The notes under the pieces are model-generated. The model did not search any database, was not told where the DNA came from, and saw only the letters and a program-made list of their open reading frames with translations. This document shows positions 2,540-33,862 of a stretch of DNA of 64,000 bases, piece by piece. A program made the translations under genes and the position numbers. Positions within the stretch are counted from its first letter, which is position 1, and each line of letters begins with the position of its first letter. This stretch comes from Malus domestica (Eukaryota; Streptophyta; Magnoliopsida; Rosales; Rosaceae): contig NC_091666.1 of NCBI RefSeq assembly GCF_042453785.1, positions 26,494,501 to 26,558,500 on the forward strand, written 5' to 3'.

Positions 2540-3060
2540 CACTCCCAACAAGATTGCTTGTTCAAAAATTAAAGAGGCATCGCTCTCCGAATCTCGAGAG
2601 CCCGATTCCCAACAGGATTACATGCTTAAAAATTGAAAAGGCACCGCCCTCCGAATCTCGAGAGCCAGACTCTCAACAGGATTACTTTCTCAAAAATCGA
2701 AGAGACACTGCTATCCGAATCTTAAAAGTCAGACTCCCAACAGGATTACTTTGTCAAAAATCGAAGAGGCACCGCTCTCTGAATCTCGATAGCCAGACTC
2801 CCAACAGGATTACGTGCTCAAAAATCGAAGAGGCACCGCCTTCCGAATCTCGAGAGCCAGACTCCCAACATGATTACTTTCTCAAAAATCGAAGAGACAC
2901 TACTCTCTGAATGTCAAGAGTCAGACTCCTAACAAGATTGTTTTCTCAAAAATTGAAGAGGCACCGTTCTCTTAATCTCGAGAGCTAGATCCCCAACAAG
3001 ATTACTTGTTCGAAAACCGAAGAGGCACCGCTTTCCGAACTTCGAGAGCCAGATTTCCTT
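2540..3060 (+). repeat. Exact-period 64-bp tandem repeat, about eight copies
   Basis: The anchor AACARGATT occurs at 2611, 2675, 2739, 2803, 2867, 2931 and 2995, always 64 bp apart, with a partial copy before the first. Each unit contains AAAAATCGAAGAGGCACCGC and GAATCTCGAGAGCCAGA (an XhoI-like palindrome). The 147-codon plus-strand frame at 2467-2910 is a repeat artefact: the period is not a multiple of three. Confidence 0.92.
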
Positions 3061-7699: not shown

Positions 7700-9420
7700 G
7701 TGTCTTTTTTGGGGTATACATCTAAGTATAAAGGATATCTCTGTTATAATGTGTCTAGAAACAAAGTCTATATATCTAGACATGTGATATTTGATGAGAT
7801 AGAGTTCCCTTATCTTTCTTTAACTACTACACATCAATCTACTCCTTCTTCACCACTGCCTTCACTCATACAAACACCAAGTCCAGTTCCATATCACAAC
7901 AATGTTCTTGTTTTACCAGAGTCACAACATCACTTCATTATGAGTTCCTCACCAGGTCCCACACAATTAAGTTCAAGTCCCACACTTAGTGTCATGCCAA
8001 ATACTGTCATTAATCAAACTTCATAAGGCTCTACTACAATTCCAGTTACAATTTCAAGTTTAAATGCAGAAGATTCAACTTCCCATCAATCCATTGCTAC
8101 ACCAACAACATATCCCTTGTCTCCTACATTCCTTGTGGCACTTGAATTCCAACATAAACAATTGCAAGTGATTATATCCATTCCTCCAGTTAATCTCCAC
8201 CCTATGCAAGAGTGGCATTATTAAGAAGATTGCTCTCCTTGCTGATGTTCAAGAAAATTGAGGAGTTAACTTGACTAAAGTTGAACCTGCAACATATAAA
8301 TCTGCCTTAAAATCCCCAATATGGCATAAGGCCATGAAAGATGAGCGTTCATCTTTACATAATCAAGGTACATGGTATTTGGTTCCACTACCAAAGCACA
8401 AGAACTTAGTTGGTTGCAAATGGGTATCTAAGATAAAAAATAATGTTGATGGTTCAATTGGGAGATATAAGGCACGATTAGTAGCTAAAAGGTTTAATCA
8501 AGAAGAATGTATAGACTATGGGGAGACTTTTAGTCCAGTTGTTAAACCAACAACAGTGCGATTAGTTTTAGCTTTATCAGCACACTTTGGCTAGACATTG
8601 AGACAGTTGGATGTGAAAAATGCCTTTCTTCATGGCATATTGCAGGAAGAGATGTATATGGCACAACCATCTGGATTTGTTGATATTAGACATGAAGACT
8701 ATGTTTGCAGGTTACATAAGTCTTTATATGGATTGAAACAAGCACCAAGGCCCTGGAATGAGAGATTCGCCACTTTTTTACCATCTTTGGGGTTCAAGTC
8801 CACATTTGCACATTCATCACTGTTTGTGAAAGTTGTGGACAGTTATGTGGTAATCTTACTTTTTATGTAGATGACATTATTATCACAAGCAATGTAACCC
8901 AAGCAATCACTGAGGTTATTCAATCTCTTACCAAAGAGTTTGATATAAAAAACTTAGGACCACTACACTATTTTATGGGGATTCAAATTCTGCAGAAAAA
9001 GGATGACTTGTTTCTTTCTCAAGGCAAGTATATTACAAATTTGTTAACTAAGTCTGAAATGTTAATGTCTAAACCATGTGCTACTTCATGCTTACCCTAC
9101 AACAGATTGCTCAAAGATGATGGGAAACCTTATAATAGTCCTGCACTTTATAGAAGTTTGGTTTGAGCTTTACAATACATGACATTCACTAAACCTTACA
9201 TTGCATTTGTAGTGCATCAGGTCTGTCAATTTATGCAAACCCCTATAGAGTCACATTTCATGGATGTCAAAATGATCCTCAGATACTTAAGGGCTACTCA
9301 AGGCTTTGGTATTCATTATGTCAAGGCTTCACTGGATATTACTGCATATAGTGATGCAAAATAGGCTGGAGACCGTAATGATAAAAGATCAACTATTGGA
9401 ATGGTTGTGTTTTTGGGTTC
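7700..9420 (+). pseudogene. Copia reverse transcriptase and 5' half of RNase H (pseudogene)
   Basis: 7700-8030 is the variable linker. RT begins near 8300 (WHKAMKDERSSLHNQGTW) and includes the conserved GCKWVSKIK, GRYKARLVAK, DVKNAFLHGIL and LYGLKQAPRPW. The active-site YVDD lies at ~8866-8878, but in a different frame from the preceding block, after a TAG at 8868. RNase H starts near 9179 and is cut by element A just after VVFLGS at 9420. Frames also break at 8594 and 9166. Confidence 0.88.
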
Positions 9421-9758
9421 TGTTGATGCACAAAACCAGAGGTCTTGGAATAACGTAAATCCGACCGTGAATCTGCATGTAATGTAAATAACACAAGATG
9501 TATCGTGGTTCACCCCAAGGTTTGGGCTACGTCCACACTGATTGTATTGTATTTCTCTGAGAAGTGAGGGAGAGAGTGTGAGAGCTTTGCTCTAGATAGG
9601 AGAGGCTTAGGGTTTGTGAGGGTGTGAAGGCCCTTTTATAGAATACGGACTCCTCACTTATTACATAGTTGCCCATTCCTTTATCACATAATTACATTTA
9701 AGTCCCCCTGAGTATTTGTATGAGATCTAAATACGAGGCCCTAAATATCGTCTAAACA
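9421..9758 (-). repeat. 3' LTR of element A
   Basis: On the plus strand it starts TGTTGATGCACAAAACC and ends CTAAACA. The minus-strand TATA box TATAAAAGGG lies at 9640-9631. A purine-rich ACTTGGAGGACTAC immediately precedes it on the minus strand (9772-9759). Confidence 0.92.
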
Positions 9759-9972
9759 GTAGTCCTCCAAGTCTTTAGTCAAGAGAGTCTTTTGGCTGGA
9801 GACTTGAAATTCAGTCCATGTGTGGGCCGAAGTAACTAGATGTTGCCTTGAACTGATACTTGATATGAGGCGGTGCTCAATCTGAAATGATGCTCAACTA
9901 GAAATATCACACGCTGTGAGGCTGCTCGGTTCGTGGCTTATGTTACCTTGGTTGGCTCGGCTTATGGCATTT

Positions 9973-10390
9973 GAAAGTGAGGGAGTCCCTTTTATAGAAT
10001 AAGGGTTCGCTCCTCAATACATAAATGATGGGCTAGAGTTGATGCTCGTGGCGAGGCGGTTGCTTAGTAGGCGGCGATGCTCTCTAATGAAGGTGAGGGA
10101 GTCCCTTTTATAGAATAAGGGTTCGCTCCTCAATACATAAATGATGGGCTAGACTTGATGCTCGCGGCGAGACGGTTGCTCAGTAGGCGGCGATGCTCTC
10201 TAATGGTGGTGAGGGAGTCCCTTTTATAGAATAAGGGCTTGCTCCTCAATACATAAATGATGGGCTAGAGTCCCCCAAATATTTTTCATAAGTGCTATCT
10301 AATGAAAGTGAGGGAGTCCTTTTTATAGAATAAGGGTTCGCTCCTAAGTACATAAATAATGGGCTAGAGTCCCCCAAGTATTTTTCATGA
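9973..10390 (-). repeat. 116-bp tandem repeat, each unit carrying a TATA motif
   Basis: GGGAGTCC starts at 9981, 10097, 10213 and 10312, spaced 116, 116 and 99 bp. Each unit contains CCCTTTTATAGAATAAGGG, which on the sense strand of the element is the same TATAAAAGGG context as the LTR promoter. The units therefore look like amplified LTR U3 sequence placed inside the element near its 3' end. Element B has two such units at 27536-27680. Confidence 0.88.
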
Positions 10391-10539
10391 GGCCTAATTG
10401 AGGCCCAATATATAGTACATAATGTAGTCCCTCAAGTCTTCGGTCAATAGAGCCTGTTGGTTGGAGACTTGAAATTCAATCCATGTATGGGCCGAAGTGG
10501 TGGTTGTTCGGAGGCGGTATTTGTATACCCTGCACTAAA

Positions 10540-10900
10540 GCTTTGTAGGTGAAGCTTTGCAAGTGAAGCTTTGAAGCTAGAGCTCTATAAATGAAGCTTT
10601 CGAAGCTAGAGCTTTTGTAAATGAAGCTTTTGAAGTTGTAGCTCTGTAAATGAAGTTTTTGAAGCTAGAGCTTTTGCAAATGAAGCTTTTGAAGCTGATT
10701 GACATGAGTGATGCTCATGAACGTTTGATTGACATGAGTGATGCTCATGAATGTTTGATTGACATGAGTGATGCTCAGTGATGTTAACATGAGTGATGCT
10801 CATGAATGTTGACATGAGTGATGCTAATGAATGTTTATGTATGATTAATATGAGTAATGCTCATGTATAATATGAAGTACTAGGCGTACTTTTGATCACC
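10540..10900 (-). repeat. 30-bp and ~35-bp tandem repeats with a short sense ORF (10606-10815)
   Basis: GACATGAGTGATGCTCATGA recurs at 10701, 10731, 10761, then at 25-bp spacing. GAAGCTTTTGAAGCT repeats fill 10540-10690. Read in the sense direction of the element, the 30-bp period gives ten-residue peptide repeats (HEHHSCQSNV) in a 69-codon frame. Each unit also contains the inverted pair ATGAG/CTCAT. The counterpart in element B is 27756-28145. A protein product is doubtful. Confidence 0.6.
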
Positions 10901-11110
10901 TGGTTGGTGGCATGAATGGCTAGTTGCCAAATTAGACTACGGGTTGTACATCTCATCACCTGGTTGGTGGTATTAGCGGCGGGTTGCCGAATAATTTTGG
11001 AGTACTGGGCGTACTTTTGGTCACCTGGTTGATGGTAATAGCGGCGGGTTGCCGAATAATTGTGGAGTATTGGGCGTACTTTTGATGACCTGGTTGATGC
11101 TATTTTGGGT
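10880..11110 (-). repeat. TCACCTGGTTGGTGG repeats of element A
   Basis: The core TCACCTGGTTGRTGG recurs about every 60-70 bp, followed by GGCGGGTTGCCGAATAAT and TACTGGGCGTACTTTTG. These are the reverse complements of the 1-740 array of E1, so they occupy the same sense-strand position in the family. Confidence 0.8.
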
Positions 11111-11595
11111 TTATGGGCCTTTACCCTCTACACAACATTCCAGCCCATTTATTTTAGGCTTTGCCGTTTTTTTTTTTTTTTTTTGGTATTATTACCCTCT
11201 GATGGGGTTTATACAGATGTCTCTGAGAGATAAGAAAGATAAATTACATCATTCAAGAATAAGGAAAGTAAACCACATCACTCTGGTGGGGTGGGTGTTT
11301 ATTCCTTGCTTTTGCTTTCTCTTTTCTTTTTTTTGCTTTTGTTTTTCGCTTTTGCAGATTTGTGTGCCTGCTATCCGTAGCTTTTCTGTGGGTAGTTGAC
11401 AAAATAACGAAAGCACCAACCGCTATCATTTTCAGCTTTCAACTAAAGAAAGCATAATTCTTTCTTTTCTCTTTTTTGCTTTTTCGTCATGTGAGCACAT
11501 GACTGCACCACTTGCAAGCAGAATGGTCGTTCTAAATGGACCGAAAGTCATGAGTATGGTGAAGGCTCTCTGTGATGCTTTCTGCGGCAGACGTC
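11111..11595 (-). other. Element A interior without recognised content
   Basis: Poly-T tracts and CTTTTGCTTT-like low complexity fill 11170-11500. The plus-strand frame 11499-11864 is the mirror of the captured multifunctional-protein fragment and is not a gene. Confidence 0.5.
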
Positions 11596-12125
11596 ATTCC
11601 AGCTTAGCTTCTTCCCTTCTTCAGACAGGATTGGCTTCGATGAAAGCATTATTTCAATTGCCTTCTGAAGCCCTACAAGCTTTGGAAGACGTTGTGTGCC
11701 TCCTAATCCAGGAATCACTCCAAGAGACAACTCTGGAAGACCAAGTTGAGTTCTTGGAGCAGCAACACGTGCATGGCACCCCAATGCCCACTCCAAGCCA
11801 CCTTTTAGTGCAAGTTTTTCGACGGCAGCAACAACAGGTTTTTTCTAACCTTCAAGTGTGTTGAGCATAAAGTCAGCAGATACATCGGGCATAACCAAAA
11901 CATCTCCAGACTTGTGAACTTTCTCGAAAACATTGATATCGAAACCGGTTGAAAACTGTCCTCCACTGCCAGTCAAAACGATCACCTTGACGTCATTTCA
12001 CCTCTCGGCCTCCTCGAATTTTTCCTTCAATGCCGTCGTTTCGCCTTGTTGGCAGGTGGATTGAAGATGGTGATAACTGCAACGCCGTCGTTGTCGACCT
12101 CCAAGGTGACCTTGGCCTTGCCCAT
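11596..12125 (-). pseudogene. Captured fragment of peroxisomal beta-oxidation multifunctional protein (enoyl-CoA hydratase domain)
   Basis: Reading on the minus strand from the ATG at 12125, the product opens MGKAKVTLEVDNDGVAVITI. It then covers the N-terminal enoyl-CoA hydratase domain of the plant MFP2/AIM1 family: VIVLTGSGGQFSTGFDINVF near residue 45, then CHARVAAPRTQLGLPELSLG and GVIPGLGGTQRLPKLVGL (crotonase signature region), ending after SEEGKKL near 11598. The 82-codon frame at 11548-11796 is the intact tail. Damage includes a short deletion with frameshift after PPAN, a TGA after EEAER, and a TAG in place of Cys before KKPVVAAV. No intron is visible over about 175 codons, whereas MFP genes are multi-exon, which points to capture from spliced RNA. 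It lies in sense orientation 580 bp after the primer site. Confidence 0.88.
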
Positions 12126-12129
12126 GTCG

Positions 12130-12277
12130 GCAGTGGCGAAGAGGCGAGGTCAGCGAGATCGAGAAGTGTTGAATATCCAGAAAGCGTTCAGAGGGTTCCT
12201 GGTGAGGGAAAGTGTGAGAAAGATCTCAACAATCCGAGTCGAGGTCAGCGAGATCGAGAAGCGCATTTCGAGGTGAG
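12130..12277 (+). pseudogene. Captured IQ-motif / BAG-type chaperone-regulator fragment (antisense in element A)
   Basis: On the plus strand, 12172-12276 reads NIQKAFRGFLVRESVRK followed by IRVEVSEIEKRISR. IQKAFRGFLVR fits the IQ calmodulin-binding consensus, and the following Glu/Ile/Arg-rich helix resembles the start of a BAG domain as in plant BAG proteins. The direction is opposite to the multifunctional-protein fragment, and the two abut. A 22-bp direct repeat (CGAGGTCAGCGAGATCGAGA and two more bases) lies at 12145-12166 and 12240-12261, bracketing the IQ segment. The family call rests on a short stretch; another IQ-domain protein is possible. Confidence 0.5.
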
Positions 12278-12686
12278 AGGCAGTGGATTTGGAATTTGCT
12301 GCTGATGTGTTGAGTCGGTGTTGATAAGATTTTCTATGTCTCTCATCCTTGTCCTCACCACACTGGTGACCAGTACGGCGGCGGTGCCAAGTGTCTAGAC
12401 CCAAAGGATCTTCAAGCCCAGACTCAACTCTCTTGGCATTTTCTATTCTATTTCTGCTTTCTGCATTTGGTTTTGCTCGAGAGTCGATTTTGGCTAGTGT
12501 GTTTAGTGAGGATGAAGTGGTGGTGGTTTAAAGAGAAGGCTGGACATAGACATCTCTTTGGAGGAAATGAAATGAAAGGTTTTCTGAAAAATCACCAAGA
12601 GGGAGGTTTTGGGTTCTTCGGTTGTACAGCTTCACGATGGTGATGAAAAAATTGAGAGAAAACCGACATAGCTTTTCATATCGATT
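12278..12686 (-). other. 5' leader of element A
   Basis: No recognised coding sequence. The part next to the primer site, ATGAAAAGCTATGTCGGTT on the minus strand (12682-12664), is conserved at the same place in element B (29995-29977) and could be a packaging signal or a very short upstream frame. Confidence 0.5.
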
Positions 12687-12704
12687 CCCACAGACGGCGC
12701 CAAA
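12687..12704 (-). promoter_or_regulatory. Primer-binding site of element A
   Basis: The minus strand reads TTTGGCGCCGTCTGTGGG directly after the 5' LTR terminus ATCAACA. TGGCGCC plus the GTCTGTGGG extension is a common plant LTR-element primer-site context and fixes the orientation. Confidence 0.85.
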
Positions 12705-13041
12705 TGTTGATGCACAAAACTGGAGGTCTTGGAACAACGTAAATTCGACCGTGAATCTGCATGTAATGTAAATAACACAAGATGTATTGTGGTTCACCCC
12801 AAGGTTTGGGCTACGTCCACATTGATTGTATTGTATTTCTTTGAGAAGTGAGGGAGAGAATGTGAGAGCTTTGCTCTAGATAGGAGATGCTTAGGGTTTG
12901 TGAGGGAGAGGATGCCCTTTTATAGAATAAGGACTCCTCACTTATTACATAGTTTCCCATTCCTTTATCACATAATTACATTTAAGTCCCCCGAGTATTT
13001 GTATGAGATCTAAATACGAGGCCCTAAATATGGTATAAACA
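12705..13041 (-). repeat. 5' LTR of element A
   Basis: It matches 9421-9758 base for base over most of its length. The minus-strand TATA box (TATAAAAGGG, 12924-12915) would give a start about 30 bp downstream, leading through R/U5 into the captured gene fragments. Confidence 0.92.
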
Positions 13042-26508: not shown

Positions 26509-26963
26509 AGGTGGATATTGGGCTATAATTCACACAACTTTGAATTTAATCTATTTCAATTCAAGTTTGCAATGAATTCCAACTTTGGAAAGTTCAAATA
26601 AGGCGCAACAAACAAAATAGAGCAGCAGCTATGGTGTGTCAACCAACTGAGGAACAACATTAATGGGATGGCTCTGTTGCTAGTCGCTCTTACAAACCAT
26701 GAAACAGAGCGATGATGCATGCCAATTTGATGAACAACTACTTCAACCCCAACTCGGTGTACACAGAAGAGGATTTCAAACATCGCTTCCAGATGAGGTG
26801 TTATGCCTTCGAGCGTTTACTTCGTGATGTCCAACACGTCAATCCATACTTTCGACAGAAGTGGGACAGAGCAGGCCGCCTTGGTTTCTCACCTCATTAG
26901 AAGGTTACTGTTGCACTCTGAATGATGACCTATGGCTCCCCAGCTGATTCAATGGATGAAACC

Positions 26964-27321
26964 TGTAATGCACAAAACCGGATGGGTCTTGGAACAACGT
27001 AAATCCGACTGTGAATCTGCAAGAAAGTAAATAACACAAGATGTATCGTGGTTCACCCCAATGTTTGGGCTATGTCAACACTGATATTGTATTTCTCTGT
27101 TTGTGAGAGGATTGTGAGGGAGAGAGAGCTTGAATATGAGAGTGAAGCTTTACTCTGAATCTCAGAGCTTGAGGATTGTGAGGGTGAGGATGCCCTTTTA
27201 TAGACTAAGGGCTCCTCCCCTTTTTACATATTTGTCCCTTCATTTATTACATAATTACATATGAGTCATCTGAGTATTTATACGAGATCTAAATATGGAG
27301 GTCCTAAGTATGGTACAAACA
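26964..27321 (-). repeat. 3' LTR of element B
   Basis: It opens TGTAATGCACAAAACCGG on the plus strand and ends ATGGTACAAACA. TATAAAAGGG lies on the minus strand within it. Confidence 0.9.
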
Positions 27322-27535
27322 GTAGTCCCCCAAGTTTTCAGTCAAGAGAGTCTTTTGGCTGGAGACTTGCAATTCAGTCCATATGTGAGCCGAAGTAACT
27401 AGATGTCGTCTAGAACTGAATACTCGATATGAGGCGGTGCTCAATTTGAAACGATGCTCAACTAGAAGTAGCACATGTTACAAGGCTGCTCGGTTTGTGG
27501 CTTATGTTGCCTTGGTTGGTTCGGCTTGTGGCGTT

Positions 27536-28370
27536 AAAGGTGAGGGAGTCACTTTTATAGAATAAGGGCTCGCTTCTCAATACAAAAAAGATGGGCTAGA
27601 GTTGGTGCTCTCTAATGATGGTGAGAGAGTCCCTTTTATAGAATAAGGGCTCGCTCCTCAGTACATAAATAATGGGCTAAGTCCCCCAAGTATTTTTCAT
27701 GATGCCCAGTTGAGGCCCAATATATGGTACATAATGTAGTCCCTCAAGTTTTCAGTCAATAGAGTATGTTGGCTGGAGACTTTAAATTGAATCCATGTAT
27801 AGGCCGAAGTGGCGGTTGTTCAGAGGCGGTATTTGTATACCTTGCACTAAAGCTTTGTAGGTGAAGCTTTGTAAGTAAAGCTTTAAATATGAAACTTTTG
27901 TAAATGAAGCTTTTGAAGCTAGTGTTCTTGAAGCTGGAGCTCTGTAAATGAAGCTTTCGAAGCTGATTGACATGAGTGATACTCATGAATGTTGACATGA
28001 GTGATGCTGATGAATGTTGACATGAATGATGGTCATGAATGTTTATGTATGATTGATATGAGTGATGCTCATGAATGTTTATATATGATTTGACATGAGT
28101 GATGCTTATGTATAATTTTGGAGTACTTGACGTACTTTTGATCACCTGGTTGGTGATAATAGCGGTAGGCTGCCAAATAATTTTGGAGTACTGGATGTAT
28201 TTTTGATCACCTAGTTAGTGATAATAACGGTAGGCTACCGAATAATTTTTTGTAGTACTGGACGTACTTTTGATCACCAATCACCTGGTTGGTGATAATA
28301 GCAGCAGGCTACCGAATAATTTTTTGTAGTATTGGATGTACTTTTAATCACCTGATTGGTGATAATAGAG
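27536..28370 (-). repeat. 3' tandem-repeat block of element B with a 129-codon sense ORF (27756-28145)
   Basis: 27536-27680 holds two TATA-bearing units. 27840-27965 holds GAAGCTTTTGAAGCT repeats. 27966-28110 holds TTGACATGAGTGATGCTCAT repeats. 28135-28370 holds four GATCACCTGGTTGGTGATAA units. A 129-codon minus-strand frame spans the middle and has peptide repeats such as YINIHEHHSYQS. It is the counterpart of 10606-10815 in element A. Shared open frames through the 30-bp repeats hint at, but do not prove, a protein. Confidence 0.6.
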
Positions 28371-28767
28371 GGCGTGGCTCTTTTGGATATATGGGTCTTC
28401 GCCCTCCACACAACATTCCAGCCTATTATTTTGGGCTTACTGTTTTTATTTTTTTATTTTTTATTTTTTTATTTTTTTATTTTTTTATGATCACCTTTTG
28501 ATGGGGTTATACAGATATCTTCGAAAGATAAGAAAAATAAATCACATCATTCAAAAATAAAGGTTTCGATAGTTGCAGATCGTTGGTGCGTACTGGGTTG
28601 TTGCAGATCTTTTTCCATGTGCATATTCTAGTGGCTTCTTCAGAAAAGTGGGAACATGCATGATGAAAGTTTTCTTTTTCAAAAGTTGATGGCATATTCT
28701 GCTCTGTCATCGTGCCAAGTTAGCTCCCTTAATCAACAAAGAGCTTGGGTTACTATGCATTAATTGC

Positions 28768-29142
28768 TCATTTTCCTGTCACTTTTTCTTTTTCTGCGTA
28801 GGCGCAATAGACAACCCACTTAACAGCGGATTGCATGTTACTCTCCAGCTCTTTCCTCTTTCCATCAGGACCTACAGTAGGCTGCATAATTCCCTTTATT
28901 GTAGTAGGACTTACAGGAAAGAAGGCGATGACCTGAATAAGCACGGGCCATTGGAGGTCGTGCATTAAGTTGAAGTCGATGATGTGGACATAATCGTGAC
29001 CGTCGAATGCTTCCAGGATGGCCTGATTGGAGGTGAAGTGCGCGAATTTGAGATAGGGGCAGTCCTTGTAGAAGTAGTGGTAGAGAAGCTCATTCTCGTG
29101 AACCGATCTAGAAGCCGAGCCGACGGTCTGCGACGAGAAGAT
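28768..29142 (-). pseudogene. Captured GRAS-domain fragment fused to an unknown tail
   Basis: On the minus strand a single stop-free frame from ~29142 reads CPYLKFAHFTSNQAILEAF and VHIIDFNLMHDLQWP, the VHIID core of GRAS transcription factors, closest in feel to the DELLA-type subgroup. After VLIQVIAFFP (~28915) the similarity stops. The frame continues 48 more codons as VSPTTIKGIMQPTVGPDGKR and following, to a TGA near 28768; I do not recognise that tail. The result is an in-frame chimera of two sources. No GRAS DNA-binding or C-terminal SAW part is present. Confidence 0.78.
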
Positions 29143-29197
29143 TCAGCAAGTGGAGTCCCTTGACATGAGTGATGAGGTCAGCAATGGAGTCCTGAAG

Positions 29198-29708
29198 AGT
29201 GATGAAACCACACAGAGCCTCAAAGTGGGTTGTGGCTAAGGCCATGTCAGGCTTGTGATTAGCCTCCTTGTAAACATTTGGCATGAAAAATCTTGGCCAA
29301 ATCCTTATCTGGGTGTGCCTGTATCGATAATGCCTTCCCCACAGAAAGCACCTTGAACAAAAAAGGGAGGTCAGAGCCCCATTTTTGGATCACTTTCTCA
29401 CCACGCACATTTGGGTTTTTGGAAATCCAATCTTTGAGAGATATAATCTGAGATCCAATTGGGAAAAACCCATTATTCTCATCCGAATTCTGAATCAAAA
29501 AGGAAGGTCCGGACTCATGGGTTCCCATCCAAAATTCAGCATATTAGTTTTTTGGGTTAATCCCAGAACCAGAGTTGAAAGTAGATAGCCTGGCCACTTG
29601 GGAATCTTGTCCCATCTTCCCCCAGTCGTAGATCTGGAGCAGTATGCAGACAGAGACTTTGTGCTGCGTCACCGCGAAAGCCCCCGGCGGTTTGACAATA
29701 CCCGCCAT
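29198..29708 (-). pseudogene. Captured mannose-6-phosphate isomerase fragment
   Basis: From ~29708 the minus strand encodes IYDWGKMGQDSQVARLSTFN, a TAA, then YAEFWMGTHESGPSFLIQ, SLKDWISKNPNVRGEKVIQK, DLPFLFKVLSVGKALSIQAH and PDKDLAKIF. After a frameshift near 29290 it continues NVYKEANHKPDMALA and HFEALCGFITLQ. This is the N-terminal metal-binding half of type I phosphomannose isomerase (fructose-6-P to mannose-6-P, the first step of GDP-mannose and ascorbate supply); the QAHPDK segment is conserved in the family. It is in sense orientation, 310 bp downstream of the primer site, with no intron visible. One stop and one frameshift make it non-functional. Confidence 0.9.
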
Positions 29709-30017
29709 TCTCGCTGTCGCAGGTTTGGCTCAGAGCGAAGGGGAGTGAAGTCTCCATGGAAATCAAAACCCAGTTGCAGGAATAAGGTAAGAGAGAAGCA
29801 GAAATAAAAGGTTGAAACTTGAAATTATTGGGCTCCAAAACTGTTGGGGAAGAGTCTTAGCTTCGGTTAATCGTATATAAAGGAAAGAGAGAGATTTAGT
29901 TTCTTGGGTTTTACAGATATCACGGTGGATAGTGGTGGTTGTTTCACGGTGGTGAGATGAAAAAATGAAAAAGAACCGACATAGCTTTTCATGTCGTTTC
30001 CCACAAACGACGCCAAA

Positions 30018-30376
30018 TGTTGATGCACAAAACCGGAGAGGTCTTGGAACAACGTAAATCCGACTGTGAATCTGCAAGATAGTAAATAACACAAGATGTA
30101 TTGTGGTTCACCCCAATATTTGGGCTACGTCCACACTAATATTGTATTTCTCTATTTATGAGAGGATTGTGAGGAAGAGAGAGCTTGAATATGAGAGTGA
30201 GGCTTTGCTCTGAATCTCAGAGCTTGAGGATTGTGAGGGTGAGAATGCCCTTTTATAGACTAAGGGCTCCTCCTATTTTTACATATTTGCCCCTTCATTT
30301 ATTACATAATTACATTTGAGTCCCCCGAGTATTTATACGAGATCTAAATACAAAGGCCCTAAGTATGGTACAAACA
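30018..30376 (-). repeat. 5' LTR of element B
   Basis: It is near-identical to 26964-27321. TATAAAAGGG on the minus strand at 30257-30248 is the promoter for the captured fragments. Confidence 0.9.
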
Positions 30377-30844
30377 AAACCTATGATATGTCTGAGTCTA
30401 CATGCCTTGATACTCTTGAACAATTATGTGACACAATTGTTCATGTTTACAAAGACGAGTACCTCCGCGAGCCAAATCAAGAAGATATGAATCGGCTTCT
30501 TTGCAAAGCTGAAAATTGTGGGTTTCCAGGCATAATAGGGTCATTAGACTGCATGCATTGGGATTGGAAGAACTGTCCCACCGGATGGCAATAAGGCTTT
30601 AGCGGAAGGTCAAGAAAGCCAACTATTATGTTAAAGGTGGTTGCCTCATATGATACATGGATCTGTCATGCTTTCTTTGGAGTCCTTGGATCCCAAAATG
30701 ACATTACAGTTCTTGGGCGTTCACATCTCTTCAATTGCCTGACGGAAGGTAAAGCACCTCAACTTGACTACTACATTAAATGTCGTCAATACAATATAGG
30801 GTATTACTTGGCAGATGGCATCTACCCAAAGTGGGCGACACTTG

Positions 30845-32405
30845 TGTAACGCCCCGCCCCCGAAATAGTTATTTCGGGAAATGATTTTGATGATAGGCCC
30901 AATTTAATTCTCTTGATTAACTTACTATCAAAAGTTAAGGTTCTTTACTTTAAATTCCTTAATTTCACAAATGGTCTAAACCATAATTCTCTTATCAACA
31001 CACACCATTATTCAATTATTTTACCAATTTATTTCCATTTTCTTCTCTTAGATTAAGATTCCAACTAAATATTAATTCTCGATTATTTAAGGCTGCATCT
31101 AACGCTGTTAGCCTGCCTACGTACCCTTGAGCGGGATCAAGCCTTTCATAATTCACATTTCAATTTCAAATCTTTCCCAAAAATATTCAACGAACGGAAA
31201 TGTTTCACATTAGTGTTACTTTATCAAAACCCTTCAATTTAATATCAAATACGTACTTAGAATAATGAAATATGCATCAAATGGCGGTGTCGGCCCCCTG
31301 GTCATGCTCCGCTGCCGGTGGCAGTGGGCTGCCTCGACTTGCTGGAAAAATACAACTAATTCTAAAAATTCTGAAAATTTACAGAAATGAAGATCTCAAT
31401 GAGTAAAGCAAACTTTATACCTGTGGCGAAATACAATTTGGCCTGAAAACACCACAAATCGGCCTCGAACCGTCGGAAACCCAAGAAATAGGTTGTTTCA
31501 ATCCATCATTTCTGGTGTTCCGCCGCCCCCAAGGTGGTTTGGGCTTTGTTCCTGGACTCCCCAGGACTCGAACCACGGTGGAAATTGACCGTGTTACTTT
31601 CACAATTGGCGAAATCAACACTGTCCACCCCGTGCACCCATCAGTGCATTTTCCACGGGACTTAAGCTGAAATATCTCAAATTTCTTACTATAATTTAGA
31701 TAGGGGAGGTCGAAAACACTCTCCCAAGGCATAAATTGAAGAAATTCAACGGAAGTAAGACAGAAAACCATCGAAAACCGTCGCGGGAGCCCATAATCCG
31801 AGTCGGGTCATTGGGTCCAAGGTGATCCGGTGTCTCCACCTTCTCTCATTTCCCATCCCGACTACCTTCTCCCATTTGTCCCCCTCCCCCTTTCCTTCTT
31901 CCTTTTTCTCCTTTCTAACCTTTTCTTTTCATCATAGCCGTCCCTTTTCTTTTCATCTTTCATCTCGACCACACACGTGGCACAACACTTTGCTCAAGAT
32001 TTCTGGAGCCTTCTAAATGGAAATAAAATTACCAAAATATCACTGACTTTAAACGTTAATAACTTCTTCATTATAACTCCGTTTCATGAACGGTTTGCGC
32101 CTGTGTGTTCGTGAGATCGAGCTCTATTAAAAAATATAAATTGTGATCTTAAAAGGTCTACGGTTTTTAAATAATTAATTTCCAAACTTCAAACTTCGTA
32201 ACTAGTTTAATTTAAAACTAAACTCAAGTAAATTAATATAATTTCTCAAAAAATAACATAATATCTCAATAATCTAAATACGTAAATTATAATAATTTCC
32301 GGAACAAAACTTTAAAATTTCCCAATTCTATTTCCATAACCATAAATCGATTTATTTTCGATTTTCCTCCACATATTCATATATTTAAAATTTCAGGGTA
32401 TTACA
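30845..32405 (-). mobile_element. Solo LTR of a Gypsy-type element (1561 bp)
   Basis: Plus-strand ends TGTAACGCCCCGC and GGTATTACA with a perfect ACTTG duplication (30840-30844 and 32406-32410) inside the Harbinger transposase. The opening TGTAATACCCTGAAATTT on the minus strand and the AAGGGTACGTAGGCAGGC block are typical of Gypsy-type LTRs in this lineage and put its sense on the minus strand. There is no internal region, so it arose by recombination between LTRs. The 118-codon minus frame at 31415-31771 lies in the LTR and is not assigned. Confidence 0.88.
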
Positions 32406-33029
32406 ACTTGTCCAAGAAATTCCAAACCCTAGGAATGATGTGGAAAAGTTGTTTACCTTACACCAAGAGGCATACCGGAAAGATGTTGAGAGAGCTTTCG
32501 GTATTCTACAAGCACGGTGGAAGATCATCAGTGAACCGGCAAGAGGGTGGAGTCGAGAAAATTTGGACTCCATCATGATGTCTTGCATCATATTACACAA
32601 TATGATAGTGGAGGATGAGCGAGATGGGTATATTGATAGAGAGTTCGATGACGACCAAGAAGATCCAAATAGATCAAGAAGGGCTGGTGCAAAAATATAT
32701 GATAGGCCTAATTTGCCTTTTAATCCAAGAACTGGTAGTATCTCTATAAATGAGTACATGAGGCGCTATAGAATGAGACGTTCTCGTGCCACAAACAAGT
32801 ACCTACAACAGGATCTTGTTGCACATCTTTGGGCCAAAAGAAGCATGGAGTAATCGTTTAAGTTTTACGTTGTTAAATGTTTTTAAAAATGTTGTTTAAG
32901 TTTCATGTTGTTAAATATTTTTTTTATGTTGTATAATTTTTATGTTGGTTAATGTTATTTAATGTTGTTTCATATTGTTTAATGTTGTTTCATGTTACTT
33001 AATTTAATTTAATGTTGTATAATGGCTTA

Positions 33030-33430
33030 GGAAATTATAGGAAAAAAATAGAATTTAAAAAAAAATATGAAACAAATTTTGTAAATTAGAAGTTATAGGA
33101 AAAAATAGAATTTAACAAAAATATGAAACAAATTTTGTAAAATAGAAGTTATAGGAAAAAAAATAGAATTAAAAAAAAATATGAAACAAATTTTGTGAAA
33201 TAGAAGTTATAGGAAAATATGGAATTTAAAAAAAATATGAAACAAATTTTGTAAAATAGAAGTTATAGGAAAAAAAATAGAATTTAAAAAAAATATATAT
33301 GAAACAAATTTTGTGAAATAGAAGTTATAGGAAAAATGGAATTTAAAAAAATATGAAACAAATTTTGTAAAATAGAAGTTATAGGAAGTTATAGAAAAAA
33401 AATAGAATTTTAAAATAGAAGTTATAGGAA
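33030..33430 (+). repeat. AT-rich 54-62-bp tandem repeat, about seven copies
   Basis: AGAAGTTATAGGAAAA recurs at 33088, 33144, 33202, 33258, 33320 and 33374, each followed by TATGAAACAAATTTTGT. It lies in the 3' non-coding part of the Harbinger element. Confidence 0.85.
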
Positions 33431-33862
33431 ATTTTTTGTAAATAAAAATAAATAAATAAAACTGTAAAAAAAAAATTAAAAAATAACGGCTAGTTGACAT
33501 CAGCTAGCCATTATATTCAAAATTTTCCCTACTATTCGTGTCGGTTATAACCGACATTATTGCTCTTAATCCTGTCGGTTATATCCGATAGGAAATCTAA
33601 CAGTTTTAAGCAAAAATAGAAGCCAACCCTTTAGTCCTTTCGGATTCTGTGAGGCCTACGAGCCCTATGGCCTAGCCCTCGGTTGGAGACGATTTTCAGG
33701 CTATTTTTTGCCCTTTGGATCTTTTGGTTGGAGATGACCTTACCACAAAAAAAAAAAAAAAAGGATAAAGAAACAAATGACATCAATTAGAGTCTAATAA
33801 TTGTGTACTAGTACCTATAATTATGGATCATCGATTTTGGAAGAATGTTAAGGAACATCTTA

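Follow-up and report, generated by a model that had tools for sequence, protein, structure and literature searches.

Do two retrotransposons of one family, carrying pieces of unrelated genes within a single window of apple (Malus domestica) DNA, reflect one accident or a habit of gene capture? The window is the whole stretch of 64,000 nucleotides that was analyzed, and belongs to contig C6, one of the 19 contigs that make up the 651-Mb genome.

Two related elements with unrelated centers

Element B (26964-30376) is a minus-strand, non-coding LTR retrotransposon, laid out 5' to 3' as 5' LTR, PBS, leader, cargo, repeat block, polypurine tract (PPT) and 3' LTR (Table 1). Its two LTRs are 92.9% identical across 354 aligned bases (pair divergence 0.074), and its PBS resembles what is presumably a tRNA-Asp PBS. 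Element A has the same layout, with LTRs at 9421-9758 and 12705-13041 (94.7% identity, pair divergence 0.052) and the target-site duplication gaacc, read on the element strand.

The first-pass annotation had described A and B as sharing LTRs, leader and repeat block, and these are indeed common to both at 75-82%. It had also placed mannose-6-phosphate isomerase (PMI) and GRAS pieces in the center of B, where Pfam finds PMI_typeI_cat (3.6e-26) and GRAS (1.4e-21), and a third fragment can now be added to these (29627-29942). That the cargoes of A and B are unrelated was likewise borne out: apart from the final ~100 nt before the repeat block, the two centers do not match. In A the Pfam match is ECH_1 (3.2e-23), an enoyl-CoA hydratase/isomerase fragment that we take to be MFP2-like.

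Table 1. Features of elements B and A, in window coordinates.
Feature	Position	Strand	Basis
B, left target-site duplication AAACC	26959-26963		Sequence
B, 3' LTR (TGTT...TACA)	26964-27321	-	Self-comparison
B, polypurine tract CTTGGGGGACTAC, abutting the 3' LTR	27322-27334	-	Similar tract in other copies
B, conserved 3' repeat block (~65-nt and ~74-nt repeats), common to A and other copies	27335-28559	-	
B, conserved module upstream of repeat block	28560-28706	-	At least 28 other places among the best 40 of 224 scored
B, captured GRAS-gene fragment, sense	28921-29148	-	Pfam PF03514 and genome match
B, captured mannose-6-phosphate isomerase fragment, sense, spliced	29191-29636	-	Pfam PF20511 and parent alignment
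B, leader-proximal fragment, common to L036 at 93%	29627-29942	-	Genome match
B, conserved leader	29943-29997	-	Comparison with other copies
B, PBS TTTGGCGTCGTTTGTGGGAA	29998-30017	-	LTR-adjacent sequence
B, 5' LTR (TGTT...AACA)	30018-30376	-	Self-comparison
B, right target-site duplication AAACC	30377-30381		Sequence
A, element of the same family as B	9421-13041	-	LTRs, target-site duplication, Pfam, genome matches
A, cargo: enoyl-CoA hydratase/isomerase fragment, plus two other pieces that have candidate parents	11263-12630	-	

The right flank of B (window 30379-30847) encodes a piece of plant transposase (Pfam Plant_tran, 5.7e-54), presumably of PIF/Harbinger type, and the left flank of A (window 8600-9420) a piece of Copia-type reverse transcriptase (RVT_2, 3.2e-21); Pfam found no match in the left flank of B. 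Judging by these transposon pieces, B and A look like nested insertions. Elsewhere in the window, tandem repeats at 87-728 are related to the 3' repeat block of the family, in the orientation opposite to A and B, and window self-comparison gave no LTR match near them. Further tandem arrays lie at 1000-1576, 2541-3058 and 33020-33458, with units of ~95, ~64 and ~56 nt, respectively.

A high-copy family with conserved ends

A genome-wide search with the LTR/PBS junction of the B family (35 nt, up to 3 mismatches) found 4,557 sites, against 0 for a reversed-pattern control; the figure counts junction sites, whether or not their centers are intact, and may include an autonomous relative. A search with the LTR of B (best 40 of 3,898 first-look candidates scored) provided a sample for comparison: 20 stretches around the best matches (L031-L050), chosen by LTR similarity and not by cargo, and so a small, non-random set that leans to B-like LTRs. 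A B-type two-LTR element is present in 14 of the 20 (in L046 with a truncated 5' LTR), which makes 16 with A and B.

These 16 elements measure 2.3-5.1 kb (14 of them 3.3-4.1 kb), with LTRs of ~340-420 nt where complete and LTR-pair divergence of 0.052-0.094. The 5-bp target-site duplication is perfect in 14 and has one mismatch in the other two. Two direct LTRs with TG...CA ends, a duplication within the 4-6 bp expected of LTR retrotransposons, a PBS after the 5' LTR and a PPT before the 3' LTR are all present, save that the PBS is cut in L048 and missing in L046. Other copies match the leader in 16 of 18 internal regions (exceptions L046 and L048) and the 3' module in 17 of 18 (exception L036, which is rearranged). 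Pfam detected no gag or pol domains in the centers, which were what was scanned, as distinct from the repeat blocks (17 elements sense, 15 antisense). The family is a non-autonomous LTR retrotransposon.

Some copies have unusual structures. In L048 the cargo begins about six bases into the PBS (L048:5239-5300), and in L046 the 5' LTR ends at ~229 nt and the PBS is absent (L046:2830-3060); target-site duplications are perfect in both. Long internal stretches are duplicated in inverted orientation at L036:2949-7078 (772 nt at 96%) and L043:5195-9901 (~1.07 kb at 89%), as if from reverse transcriptase snap-back or a strand switch.

Gene content of the sampled centers

Centers were compared as cores (the internal region minus its first 110 and last 450 nt; 762-2396 nt long) from 17 copies: A, B and 15 others, among them L032, whose 5' LTR is rearranged, and L049b, whose 3' end falls beyond its stretch. 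L046 (5' side truncated) was omitted; L041, another two-LTR element, whose LTRs are A-like, and the partial, inverted or single-LTR loci L031, L039, L043 and L047 were left out of both this comparison and the Pfam scans. Of 136 core pairs, 4 have any central sequence in common, always at the leader-side end; in all, 1,086 of 20,488 central bases have a counterpart in the core of another copy. The centers also have higher GC than the flanks in all 13 elements measured, averaging 0.471 against 0.363.

What do these centers contain? Sense frames (51, from 17 elements; E ≤ 0.01) gave Pfam matches in 11 elements, in eight of them above the curated cut-off: B, A, L033 (thioredoxin), L036 (tyrosine phosphatase), L040 (Alfin), L044 (neprosin peptide), L049a (GPAT) and L050 (LTP). 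Those of L037, L038 and L042 fall below it. In agreement with this, searches against PDB matched L042 to adenosylhomocysteinase (2.4e-9) and L033 to cytosolic GAPDH (2.3e-10). In antisense, scanned in 15 of the 17 (L048 and L049b left out), there were matches in four elements, three of them above the cut-off: Vps53_N in L038, Exo70_C in L040, the element's own inverted copy in L036, and a GeBP-like match just under the cut-off in L034; nothing was found on the antisense frames of A and B. The sense bias of the cargo is modest.

Host-gene sequence is thus present in 13 of 17 centers, counting L034 and L037, which enter via Pfam matches below the cut-off only, and L049b, which enters via genome blocks. 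The Pfam, PDB and genome tests used gave no gene match for the centers of L032, L035, L045 and L048, and phmmer against PDB, run with a single frame from L035 and another from L049b, had no match at 0.01. Read by eye, L035 looks like a putative AMP deaminase and L049b like a putative protein kinase; the kinase-like piece of L049b has a two-block genomic match. With host-gene sequence in most sampled centers and so little shared between any two, the capture of genes appears habitual in the family and not accidental, as the first-pass annotation had argued from A and B.

Spliced cargo and its candidate parents

When the genome was searched with segment 28560-29942 of B as query (best 40 of 224 candidates scored), the cargo split into separate modules. 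Query 1-316, which we take to be the 5'UTR and N-terminus of APC5, is found at 93% in the family copy L036 (C17:27289984). Query 307-752 aligns to C17:29746160-29746735 in two blocks (95% and 90%), and this candidate PMI parent, on another chromosome than B, has a 112-nt GT-AG intron that is exactly absent from the cargo: in an alignment read base by base, B goes directly from AAG to GTGC at the intron site (exon junction near 29350). Query 795-1022, the GRAS piece, matches a candidate parent at C15:14154272-14154499 (92%) and a second at C2:3216937-3217152 (89%), and the 3' end of the query is the common module of Table 1. The cargo of B joins at least three host genes: a presumably APC5-like 5' end, mannose-6-phosphate isomerase and a GRAS gene.

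At the border of the first two, CAGATCTACG in L036 and CAGAACTACG in the PMI parent are alike at 9 of 10 positions, the junction stretch being CAGA[T/A]CTACG (10 nt, one mismatch); this is the one junction compared with parental sequence, L036 serving in place of APC5. The 90-95% identity between the B cargo and its parents is of the same order as the LTR-pair divergence of 0.074, and would be in keeping with capture shortly before insertion.

The cargo of A (best 40 of 817 candidates scored) is similarly composite. Query 505-1025, the enoyl-CoA hydratase/isomerase part by Pfam, corresponds to eight blocks of C2:3550833-3552449, contiguous in the cargo save for 17 unaligned bases, with seven parental gaps missing; query 161-334 corresponds to two blocks at C4:31323595-31323854 (arranged much alike on C12), and query 340-461 matches C13:8814303. 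Modules of A recur at what are putative family copies: C1:11371897 shares query 2-599 and C16:4169276 query 482-1063, each at 91%, and query 2-145 is found at at least seven more places among the best 40 of 817. Because another place shares the enoyl-CoA hydratase module at 91% and the LTRs of A differ by only 0.052, this module may be older than the insertion of A.

In L049b, pieces of cargo correspond to three blocks at C15:28640893-28641589 (similar on C2), two blocks at C6:32930177-32930877 (also on C14), and single blocks at C15:12185457 (also on C2) and C8:16169559. The first part of this cargo is also matched by C16:18789612-18790320, with a gap of 98 nt where the intron falls; this could be either a gene paralogue or an intron-retaining copy. 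Altogether, the three cargoes of B, A and L049b lack 12 parental gaps of 77-493 nt, spread over five candidate parents; one of the gaps (PMI) was read base by base and the rest deduced from block coordinates, some block ends overlapping. Within each of these elements, pieces match several chromosomes, and paired genome matches lie on chromosomes 4/12, 2/15, 3/11, 5/10, 6/14 and 8/15.

Recurrence of modules is also seen in L038 and L040. The common 3' module filled most of the best 40 scored places in the L038 search; query 1-379 recurs at C5:19923325 (93%), and 149-379 on C11, C4 and partly C3. At C6:31228352-31229165, L040 query 1-219 and 671-1309 adjoin. In L040 itself (L040:5230-6539) the same two modules are separated by 451 nt with an antisense Exo70 piece (query 212-569, 96% to C8:6298571), flanked by near repeats of ~50 nt (78% over 55 columns, gaps counted), as would be expected of a jump out followed by an imprecise return; at C14:15519674-15521126 the two modules lie 644 nt apart. 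The C6 and C14 places are putative family copies, and the pattern in L040 suggests module stacking. Since cargo modules recur at up to ~8 other places among the best-scored in the A, L038, L049b and L040 searches, capture goes together with propagation and reshuffling, instead of occurring afresh for each copy: capture is stepwise.

Possible routes of capture

The missing introns imply an RNA-based route, and several genes per element, short homology at one junction, fixed entry and exit zones and the modest sense bias together favor template switching during minus-strand synthesis. The explanation in which we place high confidence is a high-copy, non-coding family with fixed ends and an exchangeable middle, the latter acquired by template switching onto spliced mRNAs in reverse transcription. 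The fixed 5' side would comprise LTR, PBS and leader, and the fixed 3' side purine-rich tract, repeat block, PPT and LTR. Minus-strand cDNA would be synthesized inside the particle of a putative autonomous partner, which would mobilize the element in trans; reverse transcriptase would copy the 3' module, exit the element RNA at the purine-rich tract or close to it, copy one or more pieces from at least one co-packaged spliced host mRNA via short homologies, and return to the element RNA near the leader. The product would integrate with a 5-bp target-site duplication, and later rounds would add, remove or recombine modules. Antisense fragments (Vps53_N in L038, Exo70_C in L040 and the below-cut-off GeBP-like piece in L034) count against this scheme insofar as they need a second mode of switching, which may have taken place during plus-strand synthesis; the fold-back copies (L036, L043) would fit strand switching.

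A bolder version, whose truth is slightly easier to doubt than to credit, is that the family is an exon-shuffling machine: the center would be swapped regularly, most of the ~4,500 copies would each carry a distinct chimeric cDNA derived from spliced host mRNAs, and the purine tract and leader would be evolved exit and entry points. If so, one genome would contain thousands of captured fragments.

Another possibility is read-through transduction, in which a transcript runs into an adjacent gene and later recombination puts the piece inside the LTRs. The available part of PMC13317346 reports transduction for Rider and for a TRIM of A. thaliana, and this route would likewise give spliced, sense cargo. 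It would require one event per gene beside an element copy, however, and with single cargoes joining fragments that best match several chromosomes, all internal to the LTRs, it is improbable here. Processed pseudogenes made by LINEs and inserted into integrated element copies would also be spliced, but the sampled cargo, between leader and 3' module, replaces a common center instead of being inserted into one, and in B, A and L049b alike several pieces are joined; this route is very unlikely. Capture at the DNA level, whether Pack-MULE- or Helitron-like or as filler DNA at break repair, could draw on the antisense pieces and fold-back copies for support; the LTR, PBS, PPT and 5-bp duplication speak against it, as do the 12 parental gaps absent from cargoes (one a confirmed, exact GT-AG intron), and on the missing introns it is rejected as scarcely credible. 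A single non-genic center common to the family, with A and B as accidental exceptions, was the outcome against which the first-pass annotation had set its own reading, and despite the one common module just upstream of the repeat block it is ruled out for the sample, and almost certainly wrong, by 17 centers in LTR-chosen copies that are nearly all different.

Comparison with known systems

Capture by LTR elements has been described for single elements, small subfamilies or whole-genome totals (PMC4717578, and the available parts of PMC13317346 and PMC3726574). GmaRetroS15 is a small LTR element with a 5-bp target-site duplication and a three-gene chimera that includes a 5'UTR and exons without introns (PMC4717578). 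The B family resembles it in being a small LTR element with a 5-bp duplication and an intron-free, multi-gene center, and differs in size (14 of 16 elements at 3.3-4.1 kb), in its long 3' repeat block and in its thousands of junction sites. Gene-carrying TRIMs of soybean and Medicago comprise 30 elements in 7 of 289 subfamilies, are 1.2-1.4 kb long, and nearly all have at least two copies (PMC4717578). Unlike that group, the B family has cargo that is nearly copy-specific in the sample. TRIMs are limited to ~1.5 kb or less, and B-family elements, at 2.3-5.1 kb, exceed this; LARDs are defined by a large non-coding interior that is conserved within the family, usually >4 kb, whereas here centers are not conserved and 14 of 16 elements measure 3.3-4.1 kb.

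Maize Bs1 is an LTR retrotransposon with segments of three host genes, exons only (PMC4717578 and the available part of PMC13317346, which also treats Rider and abnormal template switching). Intron-free pieces of host exons inside LTRs are found in the B family too (PMI base by base; A and L049b by block coordinates); Bs1 is described, in what is available of these sources, as one element with its cargo, whereas the B family is large and its cargo changes. Rice Pack-MULEs are DNA transposons holding exons and introns (PMC4717578 and the available part of PMC13317346). The cargo of the B family, in contrast, is spliced and LTR-bounded. Pack-MULEs have terminal inverted repeats and target-site duplications of 9-11 bp, where the B family has LTRs and duplications of 5 bp. 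In rice and sorghum, 672 and 1,343 host genes lie inside LTR retrotransposons according to the available part of PMC3726574, totals that span all full-length LTR elements of a genome, whereas here a single family is concerned.

Searches of the open-licence literature turned up no title or abstract opening that describes a family with copy-specific cargo, or the B family in apple, and the available parts of a TGTT/AACA paper (PMC5659011) and a pear high-copy paper (PMC6409787) gave no lead to it. Partial gene models in such genomes might be explained by the family, and it might be a source of chimeric transcripts or of small RNAs directed at housekeeping genes. Gene capture by LTR elements is already known from Bs1 and GmaRetroS15; what looks new is a family of thousands of copies with nearly copy-specific cargo, which would serve as a natural record of template switching, with junctions, donors, orientation and age readable from one genome.
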